IMG/VR virus record: IMGVR_UViG_3300044701_000488
Location: 1 to 30,195 of that record
DNA: 30,195 bases
Direction: 5' to 3' (one strand)
Origin: a virus
Shown: positions 3,562 to 7,565 of the stretch, one piece after another
Position numbering within the stretch: the stretch's first letter is position 1
Layout: each line of letters begins with the position of its first letter
The notes under the pieces: generated by a model
Seen by the model: the letters and a program-made list of their open reading frames with translations, nothing else
Databases searched by the model: none
Told to the model about the DNA's origin: nothing
Translations under genes and position numbers: made by a program

Positions 3562-3590
3562 ATATAACACCCTAAAAAAGTATTTGACAA
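3562..3590 (-). promoter_or_regulatory. Sigma-70 promoter of the left operon
   Basis: On the minus strand, -35 TTGTCA (3590-3585) and -10 TTATAT (3567-3562) are separated by exactly 17 bases. The predicted transcription start is about 3555, next to the nuclease ATG at 3554, so the message should be almost leaderless. The -35 shares five bases with the -35 of the rightward promoter. Confidence 0.75.
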
Positions 3591-3612
3591 GGATTATTTT
3601 ACACGGCATAGT
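3584..3612 (+). promoter_or_regulatory. Sigma-70 promoter of the rightward replication genes
   Basis: A perfect -35 TTGACA (3584-3589), a 17-base spacer and a -10-like CATAGT (3607-3612, 4 of 6 to consensus). Predicted start near 3619 gives a leader of about 20 bases containing GGAGG before the ATG at 3639. Its -35 overlaps the leftward one, so polymerase cannot occupy both at once. Confidence 0.65.
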
Positions 3613-4774: not shown

Positions 4775-5419
4775 ATGTCAAATCTCGTTACTTTCAAAGG
4801 TGCAAACCTTCCTGCCGTATCATCTCTCACCACCGCTCTGCGTTCACTTGAGAGCGTTGCTGGCCCTGCTGGCACCGTCATCATCAAGATGGACAAGACC
4901 GGTCACTGGGTGTTCGGCGCTGACCAGACCGACGTCGAAGAGGACTCGAGCTGGGCAGTCAATCCGTTCTCGTTCGTACATGGCTATATCGCATGGGGCG
5001 ACGGCGAAGTGCTGGCCGAGAAGATGGTCTCGGTCACCGAGCCGCTGCCAGAGATGGAAGCAGCACCGCCCGGCGCCAAGAAGGGCTGGGAGGCGCAAGT
5101 CGGCCTGTCGATGAAGTGCATCTCCGGCGAAGATAAGGGTATGGAGGCGCGCTACACGGTGACGTCTGTCGGCGGCAAGAAAGCCGTGCAAGCGTTAGCA
5201 GTGGCAATCGCTGAGCAGGTCGAGAAGGATCAGACCAAGCCCGTGCCTGTCGTGCATCTCAAAAAGGATCACTACACGCACAAGTCATATGGCCGCATCT
5301 ACACACCGGTCTTTGAAGTCGTCGAGTTCGTTTCGATGAATGGCGAAGCCGATGAAGCAGAAGCACCTGCCGAAGCACCGGCTGAAGCGGCGCCAGCAGG
5401 CCGTCGTCGTCGCGGCTAA
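4775..5419 (+). CDS. Probable ssDNA-binding-type replication protein
   Basis: A 214-residue protein not firmly recognised by sequence. It sits in the slot between DUF2800 and the polymerase, which in related phage modules is often taken by an ssDNA-binding protein (for example DUF2815). Features: a beta-rich centre with FVHGYIAWGDGEVLAEKMVS and a conserved-looking DHYTHKSYGRIYTPVFEVV near 175-195; an acidic, Ala/Pro-rich tail with the repeat EAPAEAPAEA; and a final basic RRRRG. Acidic tails are usual in SSBs, though ending on Arg is unusual. TAAGGA lies upstream of the ATG. The ssDNA-binding role is inferred from context. Confidence 0.7.
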   Translation: MSNLVTFKGANLPAVSSLTTALRSLESVAGPAGTVIIKMDKTGHWVFGADQTDVEEDSSWAVNPFSFVHGYIAWGDGEVLAEKMVSVTEPLPEMEAAPPGAKKGWEAQVGLSMKCISGEDKGMEARYTVTSVGGKKAVQALAVAIAEQVEKDQTKPVPVVHLKKDHYTHKSYGRIYTPVFEVVEFVSMNGEADEAEAPAEAPAEAAPAGRRRRG

Positions 5420-5422
5420 GTA

Positions 5423-5581
5423 GCACGGGGGAAAGCGGATGCTGCCGTGCGACTGGTCGGGAAAACCCAGCCGGTACTGCAGACAGACGCAGCGAGTACC
5501 CCACCTTTCAATGGCACCGGTTACCTAAACATCAGGCTCTTCCTTGGTCGGTTCGACCTGATGAGGCGGTGACCGGGGCCA
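5423..5581 (+). ncRNA. Structured intergenic element before the polymerase gene
   Basis: The 181-base gap holds a chain of inverted repeats. Hairpin A: GCACGG 5423-5428 with CCGTGC 5445-5450, plus an inner AGC/GCT stem with a GGAT loop. Hairpin B: 5452-5475, ending in GGG-AAAA-CCC, one C/A mismatch. Hairpin C: GGTACT 5473-5478 with AGTACC 5495-5500, exclusive with the base of B. Element D: 5512-5525 with 5568-5581 (13 pairs, one G-U, one mismatch) enclosing CATCAGG 5530-5536 with CCTGATG 5557-5563. No U tract follows D, so it is not a simple terminator. It could be a cis-acting RNA controlling the polymerase, a small RNA or a replication site. No known RNA family recognised. Confidence 0.5.
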
Positions 5582-5587
5582 CCCTCT

Positions 5588-5593
5588 TAGAAT
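5588..5593 (+). promoter_or_regulatory. -10-like hexamer directly before the polymerase start
   Basis: TAGAAT (5 of 6 to the -10 consensus) ends 7 bases before the ATG at 5601, and no Shine-Dalgarno is present in AATAAAAACT. If used, the transcript would start at about 5600. No matching -35 exists, because the bases where it should be lie in the 3' arm of stem D, so this is a weak call based on spacing that recurs at two other genes. Confidence 0.3.
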
Positions 5594-5600
5594 AAAAACT

Positions 5601-7565
5601 ATGTCTATTCTTTGGCTCGACTTTGAGACGCGCAGCCGATGCGACCTGCCCAGTAAAGGGGTTTACAACTATGCACAAGACGCCAGTACAGATGTACTTT
5701 GTATGTCCTACGCGTTTGACGACGATGACGTTGTCACCTGGACGCCAGATCAACCTTTTCCCGAGACGGTGCGGAATCACACCGGACTCATCTACGCGCA
5801 CAATGCCGCCTTCGAGCGCCTCATCTTTTGGTACGTCCTACAGTGTAACTTTCAACTCGAACAGTTCTATTGCACAGCGACGCAGGCGCGCGCTAATTGC
5901 TTGCCTGGGTCTCTCGAAGACGTCGGACGCGCCATCAGTAGCAACATGCGCAAAGACCACCGAGGAAGCCAGCTTATCCGACTACTTTCCATCCCTCGCG
6001 CTGATGGATCGTTTAACAATTCGCCAGAGTTAATGGCCGAGATGATCCGCTATTGCGAAACCGACGTGAAGGTCATGCGCGAGGTCAGCCAAGCCATGCG
6101 CCCGCTGTCCGAGCAGGAGCTGGCCGACTATCACACAAATGAGCGCATCAACGACCGGGGCGTGCTGCTTGACCTGCCGCTGGCCAAAGCTGCGGTTGAC
6201 TACGCGTCGGTCGAGCTGGAAGAGATCGAGACGTTAGTCGCTGACCTGACACAGGGCGAGATCACCTCGGTGCGCAGCCCGAAGATGAAACAGTGGGTTA
6301 TGGATCGTGTCGGGCCGCAGGCGTTGAAGATGATGGAGGTCTACAAGGATGGCGACTTGAAGTACAGTATCGATAAGTCAGTGCGCGCCAATTTGTTAAT
6401 TTTTGCCGAGGAAAACCATGAAGAGATTCCGGCCCATGTTGCGGACGTCATTCAATGCGCAGATGACCTCTGGGCGTCGTCAGTTGCGAAGTTCAGCCGC
6501 CTTGCAGGCTTGGCGGACGAAGACGATCATCGAGTACGAGGTGCTTTTGTCTTCGCTGGAGGCTCTGCCACTGGACGAGCTTCGTCGTACGGCGCTCAAT
6601 TACACAATATGTCGCGAAAATGCGCCGAAGACCCAGAAGCTGTTAGGCACGCTATGGTGCGAGGCCACAGCATCACCCCAAGATTTGGAAAACGCGCTAC
6701 AGATGTTCTCAAGGGAATGCTCCGGCCCGCACTGATCGCGGCGCCAGGTAAAGTATTTGTCGGGTACGACTGGTCGGCTATTGAAGCCCGCATGACGCCG
6801 TGGCTGTCTAACGATCCGCAAGCCGACGAGGTGCTGCAAGTCTTCCGCGAAGGCCGTGACATCTATAAACGCGAGGCGGCTGGCATTTACCGCGTACCAG
6901 AAGAAATAGTGTCAAAAGAGCAACGCCAAGTAGGCAAGGTGGCAATTTTGTCGCTAGGATTTGGAGGGTCGATCGGCGCGTTCTCGGCAATGGGTCGCAA
7001 CTACGGCGTCATCATGGCGGAATCTGACTCGCGGCGGATTGTAGACGCATGGCGTCGTGCTAATGCGTGGGCCGTGCGCTACTGGGGCAAACTTGAAGAG
7101 GCGTATACTCGCGCCCTGCGCAATCCTGGCCGTGAGTTCACCGCCGGGCGGGTGACGTACCTGTATGACAAGCAGCACCTCTGGTACGCGCTGCCATCGG
7201 GCCGCATCCTGTGCTATCCGTTTGCTAAGTTTGAGGGTGACGAGATCACTTATGTTAAAGCGGCATGGAAACCCGCAGCAGACGCGAAAGAATGGCCGCG
7301 TGCCCGCTTGTGGCGCGGTCTAGCCACGGAAAATATTACTCAAGCCGCTGCGCACGATTTGCTACGCGAGTCGTTGCGCGTTGCGGATGCCGAGGGGCTG
7401 TGCCCAGTAGCCCATGTTCACGATGAAATTTTGGTGGAGTGCGACGCCAATGATGCAGAGCGCGTTAGTGCCCGGCTGCACGAAATAATGACCACAAATC
7501 TCGCATGGGCGTCGGGGTTGCCGCTTGCGGCAGAAGGTCAGATAATGGCCCGCTACGGAAAATAA
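5601..7565 (+). CDS. Family A DNA polymerase with 3'-5' exonuclease
   Basis: A 654-residue replicative polymerase copying the phage genome. N-terminal proofreading exonuclease of DEDDy type: exo I LDFETR (D7, E9), exo II YAHNAAFE (65-72, with the Glu common in phage versions), exo III YCETD (Y151, D155). Polymerase domain: motif A GYDWSAIEAR with D390, motif B RQVGKVAILSLGFGG (R442-G456), motif C HVHDEILVE with H607-D608-E609. No 5'-3' exonuclease domain, as expected for a phage enzyme. The start is clear because exo I begins at residue 6, yet no Shine-Dalgarno precedes the ATG. Follows the structured spacer and ends 4 bases before a terminator-like hairpin. Function secure. Confidence 0.96.
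   Translation: MSILWLDFETRSRCDLPSKGVYNYAQDASTDVLCMSYAFDDDDVVTWTPDQPFPETVRNHTGLIYAHNAAFERLIFWYVLQCNFQLEQFYCTATQARANCLPGSLEDVGRAISSNMRKDHRGSQLIRLLSIPRADGSFNNSPELMAEMIRYCETDVKVMREVSQAMRPLSEQELADYHTNERINDRGVLLDLPLAKAAVDYASVELEEIETLVADLTQGEITSVRSPKMKQWVMDRVGPQALKMMEVYKDGDLKYSIDKSVRANLLIFAEENHEEIPAHVADVIQCADDLWASSVAKFSRLAGLADEDDHRVRGAFVFAGGSATGRASSYGAQLHNMSRKCAEDPEAVRHAMVRGHSITPRFGKRATDVLKGMLRPALIAAPGKVFVGYDWSAIEARMTPWLSNDPQADEVLQVFREGRDIYKREAAGIYRVPEEIVSKEQRQVGKVAILSLGFGGSIGAFSAMGRNYGVIMAESDSRRIVDAWRRANAWAVRYWGKLEEAYTRALRNPGREFTAGRVTYLYDKQHLWYALPSGRILCYPFAKFEGDEITYVKAAWKPAADAKEWPRARLWRGLATENITQAAAHDLLRESLRVADAEGLCPVAHVHDEILVECDANDAERVSARLHEIMTTNLAWASGLPLAAEGQIMARYGK

Follow-up and report, generated by a model that had tools for sequence, protein, structure and literature searches.

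What occupies the 181 bases that, in a viral genome from IMG/VR, lie between the gene for a protein resembling single-stranded DNA (ssDNA)-binding proteins and that for the DNA polymerase, and what might it do there? The window, i.e., the whole stretch of DNA analysed (30,195 nucleotides, record IMGVR_UViG_3300044701_000488), has on its given strand a run of genes and elements in the order exonuclease, SSB-like gene, E1, E2, polymerase and primase, where E1 and E2 are the elements at issue, and ahead of that run, at 3584-3612 on the plus strand, is a match to a sigma-70-like promoter which is a match to consensus only (10/12). The SSB-like gene (4775-5419, plus strand) has its stop codon at 5417-5419, the family A DNA polymerase gene (5601-7565, plus strand; PF00476, PHROG 17) begins with the ATG at 5601, and the spacer between them is almost fully structured.

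The product of the upstream gene falls in PHROG 9528. Its AlphaFold model resembles PhiC31 RDF (Z 8.0), then the gp32 proteins of RB69 and T4 (Z 5.6 and 5.3, respectively) and then SSBs. It and a second family of upstream genes are modelled as OB-folds with a resemblance, at moderate Z, to PhiC31 RDF and T4/RB69 gp32. The PHROG label 'nucleotidyltransferase' looks doubtful for a protein with such a model.

Two tandem hairpins

An earlier note, made from the letters of this DNA, had four successive inverted repeats nearly filling the spacer, and an inverted-repeat search bears out that the spacer is so filled. The last of them, its hairpin D, is exact in both parts, with an outer helix of 13 pairs and one A.G mismatch within 5512-5525/5568-5581 and an inner helix of seven pairs at 5530-5536/5557-5563, and is what is here termed E2. 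The first three, A (5419-5428/5445-5454), B (5452-5475) and C (5473-5478/5495-5500), find no support as functional units: in relatives a hypervariable insert takes up most of A and B as well as half of C, and the pairing conserved there is that of GGGG at 5427-5430 with CCCC at 5499-5502, enclosing all between. The spacer is structured, yet built otherwise than had been proposed, as two tandem conserved RNA hairpins, E1 and E2. In the 80 related loci yielded by a search with the polymerase, the spacers show these as two separate conserved elements.

Does the spacer fold better than chance would have it? That it beats dinucleotide shuffles holds throughout, and is clear only for E2. For the spacer as a whole z is -1.9, with 7 of 200 dinucleotide shuffles as good, and folding energy alone is a modest argument; E1 does somewhat better (z -2.3), on the gene strand only, and E2 strongly so (z -4.0), on both strands.

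Compensatory changes in homologues are present for both elements. E2 (5513-5580, plus strand) is a long hairpin with the conserved loop CCUUGGUCGG in which 97.6% of cells are paired and 10 pairs are changed on both sides, against at most 46% for slid controls. About 50 contigs were found to have it, each a member of the window's clade as far as could be seen, and wherever its position was checked it came after E1.

E1 (5427-5502, plus strand) is more elaborate, with a closing stem, P1, an internal loop of bulged-G-like type, a core that is invariant and, at the apex, a hypervariable hairpin, P3. Its general form is P1 - GAAAGCGGAUG - variable hairpin - (U or AC)GCAGCGAGUA - P1', with GAAA/GAGUA as the internal loop and GCGGAUG/GCAGC as the core. 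In the window the GGGG of the 5′ arm is followed by the 5′ core GAAAGCGGATG (5431-5441), which is near-invariant among 70 aligned copies with distinct inserts, then by a long P3 (5442-5486) and the 3′ core GCAGCGAGTA (5489-5498), invariant in alignment A1, whose AGUA faces GAA in a bulged-G signature, and finally by the CCCC of the 3′ arm. A covariance model built without the window, R1, matches it at 5424-5505 with 46.4 bits (E 1e-10 to 1e-11). Invariance of the core is partly circular, since the pattern with which many of the copies were collected fixes much of it; loci derived from the polymerase search, and so gathered without the pattern, have the same core, plus looser variants (L035, L038, L050, L081). 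In these variants, which follow an SSB-like gene, a loop of the GAAA/GAGUA type is kept and the GCGGAUG core is replaced by continuous helix.

The arms of P1 covary, with 477 of 540 cells paired against 309±9 on shuffling. Over 36 aligned copies of E1, 92% of cells are paired and 10 pairs have two-sided changes; none of 500 shuffles of the model alignment, and no slid structure, approaches the observed pairing, where the shuffles ignore kinship of the sequences and the slid controls allow for it in part. P3 is hypervariable in sequence, and the pairs at its base covary when account is taken of the U/AC linker. Stable pairs of E1, read on the gene strand, have 15 G-U against three A-C, an excess that, as far as sequence can tell, indicates RNA made from that strand.

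The description of the spacer as a candidate new cis-regulatory RNA stands, for E1 and E2 both covary and have no Rfam relative: Rfam 15 gave no match at gathering score in the window or the related loci, and chance-level matches only in sensitive mode. As had also been remarked, no Shine-Dalgarno-like sequence precedes the polymerase ATG and there is no T tract, and it holds that the structure is not a plain terminator, as a U tract after the stem is absent; a scan of the window for intrinsic terminators, with a U tract directly after a stem, found no site, and in only one of 44 E1 copies are there at least four T within the 6 nt after the hairpin. ARAGORN found no tRNA or tmRNA cloverleaf in the window, and a literature search with the motif sequence gave unrelated sequence matches only. 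Two further candidates were set aside. CUGAUGA at 5556-5562 recalls a hammerhead core and is not kept in relatives, where it is mostly CUGAUGCUGG. At the base of E2 (5511-5528), the ATG at 5511 opens a five-codon frame, MAPVT and stop, which in relatives reads MAPVI, MTPVI or MALAI; as a conserved gene it fails, with stop and length varying and the start lost in L022.

Ends like those of a tRNA acceptor

Where E1 and E2 resemble one another is at their ends. RCC directly follows P1 in 129 of 155 E1 copies (with A as its first base in 121), at this one position only, as against 3% elsewhere downstream; with similar inserts removed the count is 63 of 80, and RCC is absent at every other offset. 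In the window the ACC at 5503-5505 is like A73 C74 C75 of tRNA or 4.5S RNA, the GGGG begins at position +1 of an acceptor-like stem and C5426 is its N-1; after E2, ACC is at 5581-5583, as it is after the last stem pair in all E2 copies listed. Of the 129 RCC-bearing copies of E1, 126 open with a G-C pair, as do all those of E2; the pair is mostly kept where the rest of P1 differs (GTTGG, GAGGC, GAACCC), while N-1 is C or U in 111 of the 129. Other GC-rich hairpins that follow a stop codon have RCC in 36 of 575 cases (6%), a conservative control as it includes a few E1 variants, against 31 of 44 for E1. Twenty-six of the 155 copies are without RCC, including the ones in temperate or prophage contexts (L181, L210, L212, L216).

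The interior of E2, whose ends are U before the first G, and ACC after the last C, shares nothing with that of E1. The outer helix of E2 has 13-14 bp; the stem of E1 has 4-7 bp and leads into what may be a stacked, non-canonical loop. CCCC-RCC ends are found also on further hairpins in tandem with E1 (L187, L098) and on plain hairpins elsewhere (L027, L043, L054, L089, L159). As these ends are shared by E1, E2 and other, unrelated hairpins, the common denominator is a tRNA-acceptor-like terminus. The arrays in L098 (complement 3832-3651) and L187 (1511-1652) consist of two hairpins before the next gene, each ending CCCC-ACC, and the first hairpin of the L098 array is a looser E1 variant. A partner for ACC within the same RNA was considered and rejected, GGT being present up to 62 nt upstream in only 42 of 80.

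The 4.5S RNAs of Limnohabitans and Comamonas, genera in which E1 occurs, have the same ends as E1 and E2. That of Limnohabitans has C before GACGGG and, after the closing CGUC, ACC and UUUCAAU; this ACC-UUUCAAU trailer is also that of the window's E1, and the agreement in UUUCAAU may be coincidence. RNase P RNA of both genera keeps GGGUAGG, which we take to be the GGU loop (P15 loop) that pairs with RCC.

A possible role for host RNase P

A G1-C72 pair is one determinant read by bacterial RNase P, and another is the RCC of its substrates, which pairs with G292G293U294 (PMC11143913). The substrates include 4.5S RNA, the phage M3 and C4 RNAs and mRNAs, and the first mRNA reported as one was that of T4 gene 32, which encodes an ssDNA-binding protein (PMC11143913). 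From the acceptor-like ends, the likeness to 4.5S RNA and these reviewed substrates, we infer cleavage by host RNase P, and our preferred reading, a tentative one to which we would not give even chances, is that E1 and E2 are tRNA-acceptor-like cassettes at which this enzyme separates the SSB-like message from that for the polymerase.

The spacer would be transcribed within an early replication operon and would fold into the tandem cassettes, each closed by a G1-C72 pair, preceded by a single-stranded 5′ leader and followed by A73-C74-C75 on the 3′ side. Host RNase P would bind these ends, with RCC pairing to the GGU of its RNA, and would cut before E1, after C5426 (5426/5427), 7 nt beyond the stop codon of the SSB-like gene, and again before E2, after U5512 (5512/5513). 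The cuts would part the two messages and leave the downstream RNA with a base-paired, protected 5′ end, and the expression of an abundant DNA-binding protein could so be set apart from that of a scarce polymerase. A base-paired 5′ end is known to protect transcripts. The core of E1 and its bulged-G-like loop may keep the stem in a geometry that the enzyme can read, with the apical hairpin free to vary.

Several features count against this. RNase P normally also reads a T-stem-loop some 12 bp away, and its usual preference at N-1 is for U. The E1 stem has only its 4-7 bp before the internal loop, N-1 is mostly C, some copies are without RCC, and U-1 of E2 is able to pair with A73. The near-invariant core of E1 also exceeds what RNase P alone should need.

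Neighbouring genes

What does E1 accompany? Of 146 copies, 124 start 2-12 nt past a stop codon, with a mode of 5-7. The genes before it come from a number of groups that are unrelated to one another and in many cases ssDNA-binding: the window's own family, canonical SSB (PF00436), Enc34 ssDNA-binding (PF10991) and PHROG SSB families, and further proteins with a DDDIPF tail, DUF669 and singletons such as RecT. Of the elements found by pattern scan, 31 of 101 follow ssDNA-binding families (assigned by profile, the window's family by fold resemblance), and about 60 do if the tail-bearing, OB-like and DUF669 families are counted as such. Downstream genes are diverse, with 118 proteins in 60 clusters. 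E1 is associated less with the polymerase than with the gene before it, which often encodes an ssDNA-binding protein.

That E1 lies so close to the preceding stop codon, that upstream genes are concentrated in ssDNA-binding families and that those downstream are diverse speaks also for an alternative that is on the unlikely side and still has to be taken seriously, namely that E1 and E2 are 3′-UTR structures for stability or attenuation in which RNase P is not involved. A hairpin just after the stop would block 3′-5′ exonucleases or slow RNA polymerase, and so raise the upstream ssDNA-binding protein relative to the products of downstream genes; a host protein may in addition recognise loop and core. 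In some relatives without E1 (L058, L059, L071) a plain GC hairpin is retained at that position, which fits this. However, it leaves unexplained the positional RCC, the G-C first pair and the near-invariant core, and a U tract is almost never there.

In some relatives the SSB-like gene and the polymerase have between them a plain hairpin without RCC, or nothing, and the element is therefore dispensable, a further point against the RNase P reading. A relative in polymerase, that from Manatee Spring (MW202483), has a GC hairpin after its SSB-like gene, without ACC. A different neighbour is a small cysteine-rich, signal-peptide-like protein (MKYLFALWLA...CTTCCYG...) that adjoins E1, before or after it, in different phages (L014, L016, L096, L100, L117, L149, L159), as if the two travelled together.

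Exchange of modules

From one relative to another the interior hairpin of E1 is entirely different in sequence, and identical P3 inserts occur with different P1 stems, from which it follows that modules have been exchanged. Might the hairpins be cut out as stable small RNAs acting in trans, either to counter host defence or, for example, as decoys or mimics of a host RNA resembling tRNA or 4.5S RNA, with the hypervariable hairpin as the changing part? Such exchange and the tandem arrays would suit this, as would a size of 60-80 nt, the tRNA-like ends and the precedents of the phage M3 and C4 RNAs (PMC11143913). We think it improbable, as P3 has no conserved loop sequence fit to be a seed and the elements are almost always intercistronic and on the gene strand. 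Mobile insertion into existing hairpins was also considered; the constant strand and the bias towards G-U speak against it, although exchange of modules is clear.

Spread and hosts

E1 is a new phage RNA family, absent from Rfam and widespread in many unrelated phages; a pattern scan finds it in at least 120 IMG/VR stretches, and 36 of 38 records with a match have just one. It is in essence a viral element. Copies are also present in a Limnohabitans MAG and in Comamonas odontotermitis, and it is found in three of 90 genomes of the genus of that MAG, in two of 399 of the order of Comamonas (Comamonas itself included) and, among 398 genomes of the phylum of Comamonas, in Comamonas itself only. 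One contig from the genus of the Limnohabitans MAG (G832:C2) has two matches, 685452-685527 and 685927-685998, some 400 nt apart.

Matches to the pattern in Bacteroidetes, Planctomycetes and Prevotella were set aside as chance. At L203-L205, L207-L209 and L211, a match of 28 bases is within a reading frame, presumably hisF of Bacteroidetes and Planctomycetes, and is an apparent coincidence of coding; such matches could mislead counts that depend on the pattern. The match in L202 also looks coding and was rejected.

A cultured example is Bordetella phage vB_BaM-IFTN6 (L218), whose E1, at 31603-31671, is without clear P1 or RCC. A tRNA-Arg(TCT) gene (31426-31502), unannotated in the record, follows about 100 nt downstream.

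That this E1 is within a leftward gene cluster, that there is usually a single copy per genome, in phages otherwise unrelated, and that E1 is most often two genes and about 1.8 kb into its gene run, would each be in keeping with an element that acts from nascent RNA to modify RNA polymerase, a put-like antiterminator of the early operon. Our estimate of its chances is low, lower than for small RNAs: RCC ends and the tandem arrangement with the unrelated E2 would go unexplained, and the window scan found no terminator-like site near E1. A literature search for put-RNA papers found none with the terms used. Least credible by far are the two earlier suggestions of a riboswitch-like switch between mutually exclusive hairpins B and C, which overlap in the window sequence alone and fail as a switch because the helices involved, lying largely in the hypervariable insert, are not conserved across the family, and of a DNA strand origin, against which the 15 to 3 bias to G-U over A-C and the gene-strand-only folding advantage of E1 indicate RNA.

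Relation to known systems

The recurrence of E1 after ssDNA-binding-protein genes of different families suggests that phage replication operons have some need in common. To return to RNase P, a wider form of the proposal, which we advance with more reserve than that for the window, is that phages of Burkholderiales-like freshwater bacteria may have exchangeable tandem cassettes, with acceptor ends and unrelated interiors, that recruit host RNase P after ssDNA-binding-protein cistrons, and that this may be a general code for phage RNA processing in which RNase P takes the place of RNase III or RNase E. Should RNase P indeed read these ends, phages would be using a universal and essential host ribozyme to fix the proportions of replication proteins, and the reported cleavage in T4 gene 32 would gain a broader frame.

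How do the parts compare with what is familiar? The GAA that in E1 faces AGUA between two helices, near-invariant in 70 copies, is like the bulged-G motif of sarcin-ricin and loop E RNAs, although the likeness is one of sequence signature and for the remainder of the core no counterpart is recognised. As wholes, E1 and E2 are reminiscent of the precursor of 4.5S (SRP) RNA (RF00169) in being long hairpins with a GC-rich closing stem, G1-C72, a 3′ ACC and a single-stranded leader, but they have no RF00169 match and are located inside phage operons. M3 RNA, the C4 antisense RNA of P1/P7 and T4 gene 32 mRNA are phage transcripts listed as substrates of host RNase P, and the product of the last is an ssDNA-binding protein whose fold the window's upstream gene product resembles; with these, however, no sequence similarity is shown, C4 is an antisense regulator, and cleavage of E1 and E2 is only predicted. 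Conserved structured RNA after a gene has been called 'highly unusual' in bacteria (Weinberg et al. 2010, PMC2864571). The L17 downstream element and other structured RNAs of 3′-UTRs share that position with E1, which differs from them in belonging to phages, in following unrelated genes and in its acceptor-like ends.
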